Source: Methanomicrobiales archaeon
Lineage (GTDB): Archaea; Halobacteriota; Methanomicrobia; Methanomicrobiales; JACTUA01
Direction of reading: 5' to 3'
Length of the DNA: 7,963 nt
NCBI GenBank assembly: GCA_028678635.1
Contig: JAJRDC010000285.1
Coordinates: 1-7,963 of the forward strand
Shown: one piece after another, positions 1,474 through 7,963 of the stretch
How the letters are laid out: every line of letters begins with the position of its first letter
Numbering within the stretch: the first letter of the stretch is position 1
Translations under genes and position numbers: made by a program
The notes under the pieces: model-generated
What the model was told of the DNA's origin: nothing
Seen by the model: the letters and a program-made list of their open reading frames with translations, nothing else
The model's database searches: none

Positions 1474-2409
1474 ATGAAGCTGGTCGTGGCCCTGGGAGGG
1501 AACGCCATCCTGCGGCGGGGGGAGCGGGGGACCGCGGAGGAGCAGCAGGCCCACGTGGAGTACGCGGCAGCTCACATCGCGGGGCTCGTGGCCCTCGGTC
1601 ACCGGGTGGCCATCACCCACGGAAACGGGCCGCAGGTGGGTGACATCCTGCTCCGGATGGAGTGTGCGCAGGAGATCCTTCCCATGATGCCCCTGGACAT
1701 CTGCGGGGCAGAGAGCCAGGGCCTCATCGGGTACCTGATCCAGCAGGCACTGGAGAATGCCCTGCGCCGGGCCGGGGTGCACCGACGGGTCATCACGCTC
1801 GTCACCCAGACCGTCATCGATCCCGCAGATCCCGCCTTCGGCCGGCCCGAAAAGCCCATCGGGCCGTTCTACACGCGGGAGGAAGCCACCGCCCGCACCG
1901 GCCGCCCGGGATGGACCCTCCACGAGGTGGAACCGGGGAGGTTCCGCCGGGTGGTTGCCTCGCCCGAACCGGTGCGCATCGTGGAACAGAACTCCCTCCG
2001 GATCCTCTGCGACGAGGGCTTCATCGTGGTGGCCGCCGGGGGCGGCGGGATCCCGGTCGCGGCCGATGCGGATGGGACCCTCCGGGGCGTGGAGGCGGTG
2101 ATCGACAAGGACCTGACCGCCGGGCTCATGGCCGACGCGCTGGATGCCGACGTGCTCCTGATCCTCACCGACGTCCCCCACACCTCCCTCTTTTATGGAA
2201 CCCCGCGGGAACGGCCCCTGGGGCGGATTTCGGCAGCGGAGGCGGAGCGGTACCTCGCAGAGGGGCATTTCCCGGAGGGCTCCATGGGCCCAAAGGTGAA
2301 GGCCTGTATCCGCTTCGCCCGGTCCGGGGGAAAGGCCGGGATCATCACGTCCCTGGAAGATGCACCCCGAGCCCTCCAGGGCCAGGCCGGCACCTGCATC
2401 ACCCCGTGA
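1474..2409 (+). CDS. arcC: carbamate kinase
   Basis: This 311-residue protein has the normal family length. It reversibly converts carbamoyl phosphate plus ADP to ATP plus carbamate (which decays to CO2 and ammonia), the ATP-yielding last step of the arginine deiminase pathway; it acts in the cytoplasm. Amino-acid-kinase family signatures run the full length: ALGGNA (6-11), THGNGPQVG (48-56), GAESQGLIGY (78-87), the carbamate kinase lid motif PEKPIGPFY (125-133), AAGGGGIPV (187-195), VIDKDLTA with the phosphate-binding Lys (K212), LTDV (231-234), MGPKV with a second active-site Lys (K274), and the typical C-terminus GTCITP. The start is fixed by the Shine-Dalgarno site and by the canonical N-terminus MKLVVALGGN. 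It is convergent with arcA across a 295-base gap. No frameshift or missing residue is visible. Ornithine carbamoyltransferase is absent from the window. Confidence 0.97.
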   Translation: MKLVVALGGNAILRRGERGTAEEQQAHVEYAAAHIAGLVALGHRVAITHGNGPQVGDILLRMECAQEILPMMPLDICGAESQGLIGYLIQQALENALRRAGVHRRVITLVTQTVIDPADPAFGRPEKPIGPFYTREEATARTGRPGWTLHEVEPGRFRRVVASPEPVRIVEQNSLRILCDEGFIVVAAGGGGIPVAADADGTLRGVEAVIDKDLTAGLMADALDADVLLILTDVPHTSLFYGTPRERPLGRISAAEAERYLAEGHFPEGSMGPKVKACIRFARSGGKAGIITSLEDAPRALQGQAGTCITP

Positions 2410-2416
2410 GGGCACG

Positions 2417-2435
2417 GGAGATCTGGATTATCTCC
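2417..2435 (+). terminator. possible hairpin downstream of arcC
   Basis: GGAGAT (2417-2422) and ATCTCC (2430-2435) form a 6-bp stem with a 7-base loop, starting 8 bases after the arcC stop. The competing pair CTGGA/TCCAG (2423-2427, 2433-2437) overlaps it. No U-tract follows, which is the main signal for archaeal termination, so a terminator role is weak. Confidence 0.25.
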
Positions 2436-2682
2436 AGTCCCGGAACACCGGGGGGATGCCCACGCGGCGGGGCGGAGCCCCAAAAGCGTCCCGGTACTCA
2501 TGAGCATGAGAGAACGCTGATCCGTCCTTGTGAACGGTGCCGTGGAGCGATGTGGGCCTGGCAAGCCCCCGAAAGCGACGTAATGATAGTGCTCTCGTAC
2601 AGCAAGAGATGAGATTCACCGGCTGGCCTGACTGGCTGCGTCCCGGCCGCAGGAATTTCGGTTTCCTGGGTGTTCGACGAAC

Positions 2683-2697
2683 GTGACCACCGGTCAC
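2683..2697 (-). terminator. possible hairpin downstream of arcA
   Basis: GTGACC and GGTCAC form a perfect 6-bp inverted repeat around a 3-base centre, only 7 bases beyond the arcA stop on the minus strand. It is followed on that strand by a second near-palindrome (GTTCGTCGAAC). There is no T-tract. It could be a processing or termination structure for arcA, a bidirectional barrier between the convergent genes, or part of the structured element that fills the gap. Confidence 0.3.
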
Positions 2698-2704
2698 CAC
2701 ACGG

Positions 2705-3988
2705 TCAGCGGGAGAGCGTGCAGGTCATGCAGTGGGCACCGCCGTATCCACCGGTGGCGTTCGTCAGGATCAGGGGGGTCATCTCCAGGCCCTGGCGGTG
2801 GACCGCCCGGGAGTGAGGGAAGAACTCGGCGTCCGAGGAGAGGATGGCATACTCGTGCTCTGCCTGCCGGAGCAGCGGGCCGTACTTCTCAGGCGAGCAC
2901 GCGGCCTTCTCCCGGAGCCGGGAGAGGATGAGGGGCGCCAGCTGCTCGGTATCCGGGGTGATGCAGGTGCCGCTCCGGATGCAGAGGAAGTTCGTGGCAA
3001 AGCAGAGCTGCTCAAGGGTCGAGATCTCCACGAGATCCATCCCCTTTTCCCGCAGGTACGATTCCAGGTCTCCGGGTCCCGGTGCCGGGACGTAGCCGTC
3101 CCCGGCCCGGTGCAGGACCGTGACCTTTGCCGCCCGGAGTAAGAGGGGGCAGCCCACCGCCACCCCCTCTGCCGGGAAGTTCAGGTACGTGTCCAGGTGC
3201 ATGCAGACCATGGGGTCCCTGCCATGGATCAGCGGGTGGACCGGTTCCTCCACCACCACCACCTCGTCCACGCCAACCCCGCCCTCCAGGACCTCCCCCA
3301 CGCCGCGGGCATCGGTACGGGACCCCCTGCCGATGAAGGCCGCGTCGCCGGCCGGGAGGAAGTCGCCACCCTCGAACCTGCCCGCCGTGACCCGGGCGGT
3401 GGGGGTGATCCCCAGGGCAGCGAGGCCCAGGCCGCAGAGGGCCGCCTCCCCCTCCCGTTCCGCCGTGGCCATCCGGCCGGTGCAGATACCCCGGTCCGTG
3501 GCCGCCTGCTGGTCCCGCATGAAGTACAGGTTGTGGAGCGGTCTCCCCAGGGAAACCTGCACCCCGTCCCCGGAGAAATCCAGGTGCGGGTCCAGGAGCA
3601 CAATCCGGGCCAGGTGGCCGGGATCCCGGAAGCGGAGGGCCAGGGGATCCCCCTCTGAGGCGCCGGTGAACTGCGCCTCGCAGCGGATCCCTCTCGTGCC
3701 CCCGGCGTGCATCCGGGAGGCGGCCAGGGAAACCAGGGATTCGCGGATCTCCGGCCGTACCGCGGCCTCCTCAGTGATCGTATCCGTCAGCCGGTGCACG
3801 CGGACCCCGAAGGATCCATGGAGGAGGTCGCAGAGCTGCCGGTGTTCCCTCCGGGCCTGGCCCTGGTCAAAGAACCGTTCGTAGAGGTAGTGCCAGGGAG
3901 AGAGGAGGGCAAAGAAGACCTCGATCCCGGGCTCGTGGACCATCACGTGCCGCAGTGGGTGCCACTCGGCCCGTGCACCGGCCTGCAT
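2705..3988 (-). CDS. arcA: arginine deiminase-like protein (guanidine-modifying superfamily)
   Basis: This 427-residue cytoplasmic enzyme probably hydrolyses arginine to citrulline and ammonia, the first step of the arginine deiminase pathway. Family motifs appear in order: VMVHEPG (15-21), NLYFMRD (153-159, substrate-binding Asp 159), FEGGD (205-209), MHLDT (263-267, catalytic His 264), the segment ATNFLCIRSG (331-340), and a C-terminal GGAHCMT (417-422) with the nucleophilic Cys 420. Length fits the family. The Cys motif differs from the usual arginine deiminase GPRCMS and recalls the GGxxHCxT of agmatine and peptidyl deiminases, so another guanidine substrate is possible; the convergent carbamate kinase favours arginine. 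The frame is open for another 61 codons upstream, but those overlap cas1 and lack family sequence. ATG 3988 gives the VMVHEPG start region. A strong AAGGAGGAG (4013 to 4005) lies 16 bases upstream, farther than usual, with no start codon in between. Confidence 0.88.
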   Translation of the reverse strand: MQAGARAEWHPLRHVMVHEPGIEVFFALLSPWHYLYERFFDQGQARREHRQLCDLLHGSFGVRVHRLTDTITEEAAVRPEIRESLVSLAASRMHAGGTRGIRCEAQFTGASEGDPLALRFRDPGHLARIVLLDPHLDFSGDGVQVSLGRPLHNLYFMRDQQAATDRGICTGRMATAEREGEAALCGLGLAALGITPTARVTAGRFEGGDFLPAGDAAFIGRGSRTDARGVGEVLEGGVGVDEVVVVEEPVHPLIHGRDPMVCMHLDTYLNFPAEGVAVGCPLLLRAAKVTVLHRAGDGYVPAPGPGDLESYLREKGMDLVEISTLEQLCFATNFLCIRSGTCITPDTEQLAPLILSRLREKAACSPEKYGPLLRQAEHEYAILSSDAEFFPHSRAVHRQGLEMTPLILTNATGGYGGAHCMTCTLSR

Positions 3989-4100: not shown

Positions 4101-5045
4101 ATGGAGAACGAAGGCACTGTGCAGGTCCCGTGGGTCACCGTCACCGGCTTCGGGAGCCACATCCGGTCCACGCAGTCCCAGCTGCAGATCCAGAAGGGCG
4201 GCCGGGTCCAGACGGTGCCCCTCTCGGGCGTGAGCCACCTCCTGATCGTGGGCGGTCATCACCTCCACACCTCGGCCGTCATCAACCTGCTGAAGCGGGG
4301 AGCCTCCCTCTCCTTCTTTGATGCCGACGGGACACCCCTCGGATTCCTCCACCCCCACGGGGATCACCCCGACGAGCAGGTGCGGGCTGCCCAGGCCTCG
4401 GCACCTGCCCACCGCTACGCCGTGGCCATCACCACCGCTGCCATGCGGGCACGGCTCATGAGCCTGGAGCAGCTCCAGGAGAAGAAGGGCGGGGCCCTCT
4501 TCTACCAGGGCGAGCACGAGGTGCTGCAGCAGTCCCTCGCAGAGGTGGAGTTTTTGGTGAAGCTGGACGAGATCCGGCGGATCGCCACCCTTACGTCGGA
4601 CATGTACTATGAGGTGATCTCCCGCACCCTCCCTCCGGAGCTGGGATTCCGGAGGCGGACCCGGCGGCCCCACCAGGATCCGGTGAACGCCATGCTCTCC
4701 CTGGGATACGCGGTGCTCTACTCCCAGTGCCACCTCTCCCTCTCGGGTGCACGGCTGGATCCGGAGCGGGGGATGCTCCACGAGGGGGCAGGGGGACTCG
4801 TCTATGACCTGATGGAGTCCCTGAAACCGCGGATGGTGGACGAGGTGGTGTTTTCCATGGCAAGAGTATCCCTCAGCCAGGAGGACTACGAATGCAGCGC
4901 CCCCCGCTGCCACCTCTCGGAGGGGACTGCCCACCGGCTGGTACAGCAGCTGCATGCCTCCATCGGCAGAGACGAGATCGATGCCTACGCGGGCAGGCTG
5001 CTCGAGTCAGTGACCGCCCGGCAGCCCTTCACTGCCATGGTCTGA
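4101..5045 (+). CDS. cas1: stand-alone Cas1-family protein with altered active site
   Basis: This 314-residue protein covers the whole Cas1 length. Cas1 is the metal-dependent integrase that, with Cas2, inserts spacers into CRISPR arrays. The N-terminal beta domain carries VTGFGSHIRSTQSQLQI (14-30) and SHLLIVGGHHLHTSAV (45-60), then the FFDADGTPLG hallmark (72-81). The helical catalytic domain carries RRTRRPHQDPVNAMLSLGYA (185-204), GMLH (224-227) and VYDLMESLKP (234-243). His 227 and Asp 236 are retained. The catalytic Glu, normally in an I-E-G motif before the helix that leads to the LP and RRP segments, aligns with Ala 162 (I-A-T). The His-to-Asp spacing is 9 rather than about 12-13. No cas2, other cas gene or repeat array is in the window, so it belongs with the known solo Cas1 proteins of archaea. 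An in-frame ATG at 4059 lacks a ribosome binding site; ATG 4101 fits the family N-terminus. Integrase activity is doubtful. Confidence 0.93.
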   Translation: MENEGTVQVPWVTVTGFGSHIRSTQSQLQIQKGGRVQTVPLSGVSHLLIVGGHHLHTSAVINLLKRGASLSFFDADGTPLGFLHPHGDHPDEQVRAAQASAPAHRYAVAITTAAMRARLMSLEQLQEKKGGALFYQGEHEVLQQSLAEVEFLVKLDEIRRIATLTSDMYYEVISRTLPPELGFRRRTRRPHQDPVNAMLSLGYAVLYSQCHLSLSGARLDPERGMLHEGAGGLVYDLMESLKPRMVDEVVFSMARVSLSQEDYECSAPRCHLSEGTAHRLVQQLHASIGRDEIDAYAGRLLESVTARQPFTAMV

Positions 5046-5139: not shown

Positions 5140-5415
5140 TCACTCTGTCAGGCGCCGGATGGAGAAGCCGGGATACGACTGGGGCTCTCTCTCGGTGATG
5201 GCCAGGGAGCGGATGACGACCCGGGGGCACTCGTGGAGGAGGGAAACGAATTTCTCCAGGAGCGCAGGGTCCGCGCTGGCGCAGATCCGGACCCGGCCGT
5301 CCGGGAGGTTCATCACCTCCCCGGTGATCCCCAGGTGAGAGGCAATCTTGCGGGTGCAGGCCCGGAACCCGACAGACTGGACCCTTCCGGAGACGTGGAT
5401 CTCCACCGTCTTCAC
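5140..5415 (-). CDS. acyP: acylphosphatase
   Basis: This 91-residue protein has the standard acylphosphatase length and fold signature. It hydrolyses acyl phosphates such as acetyl phosphate or carbamoyl phosphate to the acid and phosphate in the cytoplasm. The motif GRVQSVGFR (10-18) supplies the phosphate-binding loop and catalytic Arg 18, and GEVMNLPDGRV (32-42) supplies catalytic Asn 36. The start is GTG at 5415, preceded by GAGGAG with an 8-base spacing that lies inside the end of the upstream gene. The GTGA start/stop overlap with the large solenoid gene (4 bases) indicates one transcript and probable translational coupling. Its biological substrate in archaea is not settled. Carbamoyl phosphate from the nearby arginine deiminase pathway is chemically possible, but that link is only inference. 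Confidence 0.95.
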   Translation of the reverse strand: MKTVEIHVSGRVQSVGFRACTRKIASHLGITGEVMNLPDGRVRICASADPALLEKFVSLLHECPRVVIRSLAITEREPQSYPGFSIRRLTE

Positions 5416-7963
5416 GCGAGATGCTCCTCAATGATGCGGAGCGCCACGTCCAGCTCGTGGAAGATACTGTCCCGGAGTTCGTCCTCGCGTATGTTCATGG
5501 CCGCGTACACGGCCATTCCCAGGATATCACGGCTCGTCTCCTCGTCCCCGGCGGAATAGACGTTGAGGGCGAGGTCCCCCAGGACAAAGGCCCTGCGGGA
5601 GAGGGGCCGGATGATGGAGGCCTCATCGAGGGCAGCCTGGAGCATCCGTTCCGCCACACGATCGTCCTTGGCCTTCAGGTACAGGGAGTAGAGGTCCACG
5701 TAGTACCGTGCCCGCTTCGCCCGGTCGGGCAGGCTGTTGATCAGGTGGGTGACCGCCGAGATCTCGGCCATGGTGTTCTTCCCTTCCCGGATCTTTTCCC
5801 TCAGGGACCGGAAGGCCTGGGGGATGGGGCCCGGCTGGACCTCCCGCCGGTCCACCCCTAGCTGGGACAGGAGCTGGGTCCGGACCGTGTCGTCGTCGAT
5901 CTGGGAGGCCACCTCCCTCGCCCACTTCGTCATGGCCTCATCCCCCCGCTTGAAGGCCACCATCTGCATCACCTGGACCAGGCCCTTCTTGGCCATGGTG
6001 GAGATGAAGGGAATGGAGATGGCCTCGATATCGGTGTTGGCCTGTTCCAGGAGGCGTATCGCGTCGCCCTTCTCCCCGTACTGCTCGGCCATGGGCACAA
6101 CGGAAACGAGCATCTCCACCCGCTCGTAGGTGGAGGGGATCCGGGCAATCGCATCGTAGATGGACCGAAGGATCTGCCTGCTCCGGGGGCCGGGGATGAC
6201 CATCCGGAGGATGGAGATAAAGGCATTCACGTACTCCACGGGATCATCGATCTGTTCCACGAGGGAAAGGGCAGTCTCCACGTTCTCCTCCCGGGGAGTG
6301 ATGGCCTGCAGGCTCACGATGGAGAAGATGATGTGGCGGCGGACGATCGAGCCCTGCTCCCCCTTGATGCGGTCCAGGAGCTCCTGGGCCTGCTCCAGGC
6401 AGGAGTGGGCGAGGCCCTCGTCCACCCGGGAAAGCATGCCGGTCAGGTCAGAGAGGATCAGCGCCTTCTCGTAAGGATCGGTGAGGGCATCCCGGGAGGC
6501 GTGGACACTGAGGAGGATGGCCCTCCCCTTCTCGTTCTCCCTGATGGCCAGGTAGGAATCGGCCAGGTTGCAGAGGGCAGAGAACTTCTTGTAGGAGTCC
6601 GGCGTCTGCTCCAGCAGCCGGTAGATCAGGTTGAGCACGATGGGGGAGATGTGGTCGCTCTGGAGCTTCTGGAGCACCGTCGCGATGATATCGTAGGGAT
6701 CCGTGGAGTCCAGGCTCTCCATCACGTCACTGAAGGTGCCGACGATCCGGAAGAACATGGCGTTCCTCTCCAGGCTCTCCTCGATCTCCAGGATGAACAT
6801 GGTGAGGGGGATCAGGAAATCGATCCGGTTGGACTTCTGGGAGTATTCCAGGATGATGTCCACGTACTTGGAGATCTTGAGGGAGAGCTGGGCCCGGTTC
6901 ACGCTCTCCATCAGGAGCTGGAGGGCCTGCTGGAAGGGTTCCACCTGGAAGGCCATGTCGTCGGGGGTCGGGGGCGTCTCAGCCGCGCCGAACCTGAGGC
7001 ACCCCACCCGGATCAGCCCCTCGATGATGGCCTCCCTCTGCTGCTGCTGGAGGGAGGGGTCCTCCACCGAGCGGGTGATCTGGTACGCCTCGGAGAGGGC
7101 CTTGGGCGACCGGTGGTGGATCCCGTAGGTGATCATCCCCTTGATGACGCTGTCAATGGCATAGAGCTTGAAGTCCCGGTCGAGAAGCGATCCGGTCCAC
7201 CGCATCATGCGGTGGAGCAGGTCCAGGTCACCCTGTTCCACGGCCAGGATGGTGGCCTGGTCGATGACGTGACCGAGCGCCTCGGAACGGGGCCGCTGCT
7301 CCTGGATCTCGCAGGAAAGCCCCACAGCCCGCTGCAGGAGATCACGGTTCTTCAGGGCCACACCCACCCTGGCAATCCCGATGACAATCGCCGAGATGAC
7401 CCCCTCCCGGTCCGCCCGGTTCGGTATCTGTTCTGCAAGGGTGAGGAGGGCCGACGGGTCCTGGGACTCGATGAATCCCCGGTCAATGAGGATCCGGATG
7501 CACTCCGGGATCACCGTTCCCGGGGCCGAATGCTCCCTGGCCATTTCCTGGAGCGAGGCCAGATGCTGGACCATGTCCGGGAACTGGACATCCCTGCAGA
7601 GGTCGGCCAGGGCCCGTGAGATGACCAGGTCCCGCTGACCCGTCTCCATGGGGGCAAGGATCTTCTCCTTTACATAGGGGATCTCATCCCTGACCACGCC
7701 CTCCCGCAGGATCCGTACACAGGTCTCTGTGGCATTCTTGTTGGCAGACTCCCGGGGGCCGCCGATCCGGGCAAAGATCTCGATGGCGTTCCGGATCTCC
7801 CCCCGCTTGAGAAGGGTATCCGAGAGGAGCAGGTACTGGGAGAGGAAGGACTCGCTGGAGGTCCCGGCCGCCACGTCCAGCAGGGGCACGATCCGGAGGA
7901 GGAGCCCGATGTCGCCGGTCCGTTCCACCACGACGCTGGCTGACGACACGATCTCTTTCACGG
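5412..7963 (-). CDS. large alpha-helical repeat (TPR/HEAT-like solenoid) protein, N-terminus outside window
   Basis: At least 849 residues are visible. The frame remains open at the right edge; a GTG at 7961 is available but the true start is probably further upstream. The sequence consists almost entirely of amphipathic helices of about 15-20 residues in pairs, with degenerate TPR-like phrases such as ALCNLADSYLAIRENEKGRA, LALNVYSAGDEETSRDIL and YVDLYSLYLKAKDDRVAERM. There is no signal peptide in the visible part, no transmembrane segment, no nucleotide-binding loop and no catalytic motif, and cysteines are few. This indicates a cytoplasmic scaffold or protein-interaction solenoid. A middle part (IDFLIPLTMFILEIEESLERNAMF) is more hydrophobic and less repeat-like. 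The family is not one I recognise. It is the upstream partner of acyP in a 4-base overlapping pair. The open frame across about 2.5 kb supports a real gene over the many antisense frames. Confidence 0.85.
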   Translation of the reverse strand, partial: VKEIVSSASVVVERTGDIGLLLRIVPLLDVAAGTSSESFLSQYLLLSDTLLKRGEIRNAIEIFARIGGPRESANKNATETCVRILREGVVRDEIPYVKEKILAPMETGQRDLVISRALADLCRDVQFPDMVQHLASLQEMAREHSAPGTVIPECIRILIDRGFIESQDPSALLTLAEQIPNRADREGVISAIVIGIARVGVALKNRDLLQRAVGLSCEIQEQRPRSEALGHVIDQATILAVEQGDLDLLHRMMRWTGSLLDRDFKLYAIDSVIKGMITYGIHHRSPKALSEAYQITRSVEDPSLQQQQREAIIEGLIRVGCLRFGAAETPPTPDDMAFQVEPFQQALQLLMESVNRAQLSLKISKYVDIILEYSQKSNRIDFLIPLTMFILEIEESLERNAMFFRIVGTFSDVMESLDSTDPYDIIATVLQKLQSDHISPIVLNLIYRLLEQTPDSYKKFSALCNLADSYLAIRENEKGRAILLSVHASRDALTDPYEKALILSDLTGMLSRVDEGLAHSCLEQAQELLDRIKGEQGSIVRRHIIFSIVSLQAITPREENVETALSLVEQIDDPVEYVNAFISILRMVIPGPRSRQILRSIYDAIARIPSTYERVEMLVSVVPMAEQYGEKGDAIRLLEQANTDIEAISIPFISTMAKKGLVQVMQMVAFKRGDEAMTKWAREVASQIDDDTVRTQLLSQLGVDRREVQPGPIPQAFRSLREKIREGKNTMAEISAVTHLINSLPDRAKRARYYVDLYSLYLKAKDDRVAERMLQAALDEASIIRPLSRRAFVLGDLALNVYSAGDEETSRDILGMAVYAAMNIREDELRDSIFHELDVALRIIEEHLA

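Follow-up and report, generated by a model that had tools for sequence, protein, structure and literature searches.

A stand-alone Cas1 protein of Methanomicrobiales with a probable non-catalytic role independent of CRISPR

The window analysed here, a 7,963-nucleotide stretch of DNA taken at its full length, carries a gene that, as judged from sequence comparison, almost certainly belongs to Cas1-solo group 1 and is maintained by purifying selection. This group was reportedly first defined by Makarova et al. in 2013. The explanation that we favour holds that an ancestor of Methanomicrobiales would have kept a stand-alone Cas1, that the metal-binding Glu of this protein would have been lost, together with the His in many lines, and that the Cas1 fold would have been recruited for a non-catalytic function outside CRISPR. 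The window gene would then belong to Cas1-solo group 1 by vertical descent. Leaving aside the kind of partner, we give this explanation as a whole a probability of roughly 60%. Its firmest functional component is the predicted lack of standard Cas1 catalysis: integrase and nuclease activity are very probably missing. As a weaker suggestion, the protein might work by binding a partner through residues R118, R160, M168, E171, R175, R185 and R269.

Results

An intact cas1 gene standing alone in the window

The cas1 gene and its neighbours lie as follows.

2705..3988, minus strand: arginine deiminase-family gene (Pfam PF02274), divergent and upstream of cas1
4101..5045, plus strand: solo cas1 (Cas1-solo group 1), 314 aa, with its ATG at 4101 and a stop codon ending at 5045
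5140..5415, minus strand: acylphosphatase gene acyP (Pfam PF00708), convergent to cas1
5412..7961, minus strand: large ORF, 849 aa in the window and about 1190 aa in relatives

The first-pass annotation had described cas1 as intact and uninterrupted, and the reading frame is indeed open from 4101 to 5045. The window protein matched the Pfam Cas_Cas1 profile with 182.5 bits (cut-off 22.3 bits), and its AlphaFold2 model (mean pLDDT 91.2, pTM 0.88) had Cas1 and casposase chains as top structural matches. Among the seven window ORFs scanned with Pfam there were no cas genes, this profile scan finding no cas2 in the window and no PolB within its 8 kb. No CRISPR-like array or array-like repeat was found in the same 8 kb, and the inverted repeats in this limited span were short, with 79-85% pairs. 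Viral contigs searched with the window protein gave no match, nor did an Rfam scan, and PHROGs returned a single family match of 60.9 bits with function unknown. A sigma-70 promoter scan, a method not suited to archaea, found none, and a terminator predictor equally unsuited to archaea indicated three terminator-like sites.

Register of the active site

Active-site positions were assigned from a MAFFT alignment of 112 group-1 sequences, 18 ordinary Cas1 sequences and E. coli Cas1 (L111). The group-1 set consisted of the window protein, L001-L110 minus the degenerate L098, L130 and L131, and the ordinary set (L112-L129) was a non-random one, hand-picked among the matches listed. L110 ends at a contig end and was omitted from the charge and dN/dS calculations; counts involving this omission are given out of 111. 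The positions concerned are these.

4584..4586, plus strand: Ala162 (GCC), in the place of the catalytic Glu, E. coli E141
4779..4781, plus strand: His227, equivalent to E. coli H208; 59/111 group-1 sequences have His
4806..4808, plus strand: Asp236, equivalent to E. coli D218 rather than D221; 110/111 have Asp
4815..4817, plus strand: Glu239, equivalent to E. coli D221; 68/111 have Glu and 32/111 Asp

The replacement of the catalytic Glu by Ala, which the first-pass annotation had proposed, is real: PDB alignments (A. fulgidus 4n06, Synechocystis 7cr6) put A162, with no intervening gap, at the position of E. coli E141, and the MAFFT alignment with the 18 ordinary Cas1 sequences and E. coli Cas1 upheld this register. 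H227 (4779) and D236 (4806) had likewise been located correctly, but D236 had been equated with D221, a mis-registration, as it aligns with D218 and the place of D221 is filled by E239. The accompanying claim of a shortened His-Asp loop, which set 9 against 13, shares this mis-registration. The H227-D236 spacing in the window protein is 9, the H208-D218 spacing in E. coli is 10, and in ordinary Cas1 the spacing is 12 in 18/18, so that the window protein falls one residue below E. coli and three below ordinary archaeal Cas1. Across group 1 the spacing was 9 in 100 of the 112 sequences and 16 in 11, L110 being cut off at this point. The eleven sequences with a spacing of 16 (L092, L093, L094, L096, L100 and L102-L107) are exactly those that have Phe at 162 and Tyr at 227.

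Loss of the metal site across group 1

Since Glu at position 162 occurred in only 8/112 group-1 sequences vs 18/18 ordinary Cas1, Ala162 is not a local accident. We therefore rejected the view that it is an oddity of the window gene and regard it as one clade state of a family-wide trait. Ten residues were found at this position among the 112 sequences (H 46, S 26, F 14, E 8, A 4, Q 4, Y 4, D 4, N 1 and L 1), and the states at both 162 and 227 differ by clade. Equivalents of E141 and H208 were both kept in one homologue of 112, L051 (10001-10927), the other 111 being without the Glu, without the His, or without both; L051 is also the sole member of the set with all four catalytic residues (EHDE). 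Going by sequence, some group-1 members, L051 for example, may be active. L060 and L079, the tree neighbours of L051, keep the Glu and have Asn at the His position.

Changes were counted on a quick LG+G4 tree built without columns 162, 227 and 239, for which long-branch warnings were given. On this tree, position 162 changed at least 14 times and position 227 at least 20 times; the 112 group-1 rows made up one side of a branch with an SH-aLRT of 97, a value to which the long-branch warnings of this quick tree also apply. The site rates at 162 and 227 were at the 34th and 42nd percentile, respectively, which is moderate and under the median, and the pocket is thus not unconstrained. Of eight aligned positions that are invariant in 18/18 ordinary Cas1, group 1 retains five, namely Y169, R186 and N196 (112/112 each), D236 (110/111) and D247 (111/111), and has lost E162, H227 and F241. 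F241 was unchanged in 23/111 group-1 sequences, and its loss implies that the release is not confined to metal positions.

One reading of these data is an active enzyme with a changed site, in which a metal or some new chemistry would rest on other residues, such as His162 together with His227, or the Arg, Glu and Cys residues that are fixed. His is the commonest state at 162, and H162 and H227 occurred together with D236 and E/D239 in 24/112 sequences (HHDD 14, HHDE 10). Consistent with the same reading, E138, E171, D236, D247 and C270 are conserved in at least 99% of group 1. Yet there is no set common to the group, the two positions change repeatedly on the tree, and the window protein has Ala, which together make such an enzyme improbable. 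As a fixed feature, the changed metal site that the first-pass annotation had offered does not agree with ten residues at position 162 and His in 59/111 at 227. D167 (97/112) and E171 (112/112), considered as stand-in ligands, probably do not fill the metal site either, since they face away from 162 at 140 and 180 degrees, respectively, angles that hold for an ideal helix only.

Near-universal retention and purifying selection

A group-1 match with E 9.4e-72 or better was present in 181/185 Methanomicrobiales genomes, one of them the degenerate copy in G109. Ribosomal protein S7 was detected in 179/185 of the same genomes, including all four that are without a group-1 match. Three of these four absences coincide with contig ends: the G114 contig breaks off after the first 25 residues of the gene, that of G045 runs out past acyP, and that of G077 stops with the adjoining large ORF; the fourth absence is in G133. 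In a phylum sample, 30/146 genomes had a group-1 match, all of them belonging to the order set, and the next best match was at 1.6e-33. A protein search gave 775 matches, and among the 120 listed, those named by organism were Methanomicrobiales. The genome-contig search, taken over 80 of 148 relatives, gave Methanomicrobiales or 'Euryarchaeota archaeon', with Methanomicrobiales MAGs as the nearest loci of the window. In the G109 copy (L098 and L139) the RRxRP..DPVN motif is gone, and its frame is open, but about 119 codons pass before the first ATG/GTG/TTG. Among the matches listed, one genome of 185, G118, had a pair of group-1 copies on separate contigs (L131 and G118:C67), which may stem from a duplication or a mixed assembly.

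Presence of the gene did not depend on cas2. The PF09827 cas2 family was found in 78/185 genomes of the order, and the group-1 gene occurred in 78/78 genomes with it and in 103/107 without it; PF09827 gave no match in the E. coli control, so that some cas2 types are missed in these counts. In 76/185 genomes the group-1 gene was the sole Cas1-family match. Some other genomes contain it together with another Cas1, as would be expected of an accessory subunit that pairs with an active Cas1 in CRISPR adaptation. With the many genomes that have no second Cas1 or no PF09827 match, and with a window that has no cas gene, such a subunit is nearly refuted.

Selection was estimated as dN/dS. Within the clade of the window, in the six pairs formed by the window gene and the three orthologues nearest to it, dN/dS was 0.12-0.21. 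Over 277 close pairs of group-1 cas1 (dN under 0.15, dS 0.05-1) the median was 0.175 and the maximum 0.34; the neighbouring genes acyP (241 pairs) and the large ORF (227 pairs) had medians of 0.189 and 0.144, respectively. A wider set of 646 cas1 pairs, with a median of 0.284 and a maximum of 0.92, included saturated pairs and is superseded by the close pairs. No internal stops occurred in the group-1 rows among the matches listed.

These results bear on the possibility that group 1 is a vestigial gene in decay, which excerpts of PMC9755687, where it serves as an outgroup, read as 'probably vestigial'. The loss of active-site positions and the degenerate copy in G109 agree with decay. It is contradicted, to the point of being hardly credible, by prevalence and selection: the gene is held by nearly the whole order, the group-1 rows among the matches listed are free of internal stops, its dN/dS resembles that of neighbouring genes, and it has ten or more fixed positions. 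A protein that has lost part of its active site and is nevertheless retained in almost all genomes examined from the order probably has another job. Taken together, dN/dS, prevalence, clade-variable metal positions and fixed residues speak against a relic in decay as well as against a new metal site that has become fixed. Selection for a function other than spacer integration, as put forward in the first-pass annotation, gains support from the low dN/dS in the clade of the window and the lack of cas2 and array in the window, and, among relatives, from the 103/107 and 76/185 counts.

A new set of fixed residues and a loss of basic charge

Group 1 has acquired conserved positions of its own, located in the window gene as follows.

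4578..4580, plus strand: Arg160, in 112/112 group-1 and 0/18 ordinary Cas1 sequences (Gly in 16/18)
4602..4625, plus strand: M168-YYE-R175 segment, with M168, E171 and R175 each in 112/112 of group 1
4653..4658, plus strand: Arg185-Arg186, both in 112/112 of group 1; R186 also in 18/18 ordinary Cas1
4905..4910, plus strand: Arg269-Cys270, R in 109/111 and C in 111/111

To these can be added R118, present in 107/112 group-1 sequences. Each of R118, R160, M168, E171, R175, R185 and R269 was present in only 0-4 of the 18 ordinary Cas1 sequences. In ordinary Cas1 the conservation moment along helix 155-176 lay 21 degrees away from position 162 (permutation p 0.018); in group 1 it lay 193 degrees away and was not significant by itself (p 0.11).

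Taking residues 89-310 as the C-terminal domain, we found a net charge above zero in 0/111 group-1 sequences vs 13/18 ordinary Cas1. The fraction of basic residues fell from 0.89 in ordinary Cas1 to 0.02 in group 1 at position 108, from 0.83 to 0.05 at 277, from 0.78 to 0.03 at 287, and from 0.67 to 0.01 at 127. Eight of the ordinary Cas1 sequences come from the same order, and since three of these have negative C-terminal domains, with a further one near zero, the charge shift may partly be a lineage effect. A non-catalytic nucleic-acid binder, in which the Cas1 fold would hold branched or bent DNA without cutting it, for example in repair or replication, is made less likely by the loss of these basic positions and by the consistently non-positive domain. 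The DNA binding mentioned in the first-pass annotation is weakened by the loss of basic residues and keeps a minor share of the probability. Because the basic residues of ordinary Cas1 are largely gone, a protein or specific ligand is slightly likelier as the partner than Cas1-style DNA handling, an assignment that we make tentatively.

Variable neighbours

The gene acyP adjoins cas1 in convergent orientation in 80/80 loci (80 of 148 relatives), and was found in 6/31 further group-1 loci (L084, L091, L095, L097, L099 and L131). It was not found in the flanks of the other 25 group-1 loci, some of which end with the contig; by their tree position these 25 would be Methanospirillum- and Methanocorpusculum-like. 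As an obligate partner acyP was rejected on the grounds of its convergent orientation and its presence in only 6/31 further loci within the flanks examined. The large ORF (5412-7961) has no family match in Pfam, NCBIfam or PHROGs. It lies beside acyP and solo cas1 in 49/80 loci (80 of 148 relatives) and was found in 99/185 genomes of the order (E up to 1e-10); we would guess that it forms helical repeats. The arginine deiminase-family gene, whose start was chosen by eye as a Met common to relatives, was rejected as a partner because it is the upstream neighbour in only 12/80 loci (80 of 148 relatives). It scored 52.2 bits, far under the arcA cut-off of 489.1, and is convergent (minus strand) with a carbamate kinase gene on the plus strand, the pair spanning 1474-3988 of the window.

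A fixed operon partner elsewhere was also rejected, as the neighbours vary (glyoxalase-like, M54 peptidase, OBG-like GTPase and TBP genes); M48 peptidase, PGK and DEAD helicase genes are further examples. Phosphoglucomutase and DUF5806 genes lie near L132, L133, L134 and L139 without acyP, and near L140 with acyP. In two genomes (L136, 6914-7621, and L137, 7063-7779), a same-strand archaemetzincin-like (M54) gene lies directly against the start of solo cas1 or overlaps it. That no partner gene is fixed across loci counts against the explanation that we favour.

Discussion

The window protein resembles Cas1-solo group 1 in its confinement to the order, its separate clade, its incomplete active site, the lack of a link to CRISPR-cas and the lack of signs of horizontal transfer, and nothing speaks against its membership. 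In excerpts of Krupovic et al. 2014 (PMC4046053), group 1 is restricted to Methanomicrobiales, with no evidence of horizontal transfer, and none of its members has a full active site, so that they are termed 'unlikely to be active endonucleases'. The same excerpts cite work in which Ala at E141, H208, D218 or D221 abolished the nuclease activity of E. coli Cas1, and a stronger vertical trend is described for solo cas1 genes in excerpts of PMC5704561. Active-site loss is therefore known at the family level, the window protein being an additional member, and the full residue set of L051 is a small exception to the 'none' of the PMC4046053 excerpts. Casposases (Cas1-solo group 2) are described there as having all four catalytic residues and as belonging to casposons with polB; the window protein does not have the full residue set, and no PolB was found among the seven ORFs scanned in the 8 kb. 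Casposons would also have terminal inverted repeats around cas1, whereas the inverted repeats found in this span are short. With CRISPR-associated Cas1 (A. fulgidus 4n06, E. coli) the window protein shares the fold and Y169, R186, N196, D236 and D247; unlike them it has no catalytic Glu, no cas2 or array within 8 kb, and a C-terminal domain that is not basic.

An open-access literature search recognised no experimental study of group 1. In the excerpted literature searched we did not meet the near-universality, dN/dS, cas2 independence, residue pattern or charge change; what is added here is the prevalence, the selection, the residue pattern, the charge change and the L051 exception.

Beyond the favoured explanation, a non-catalytic and repurposed Cas1, group 1 may be an order-wide core cellular protein in which R118, R160, M168, E171, R175, R185 and R269-C270 form a new binding or catalytic surface, serving neither CRISPR adaptation nor transposition. 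Excerpts of PMC4046053 and PMC9755687 set group 1 aside as inactive or vestigial. If almost the whole order keeps it under purifying selection without a metal site, Cas1 would have a non-enzymatic role outside CRISPR. Such a role would bear on the origin of Cas1, and the present analysis names the residues and the hosts in which it could be tested.
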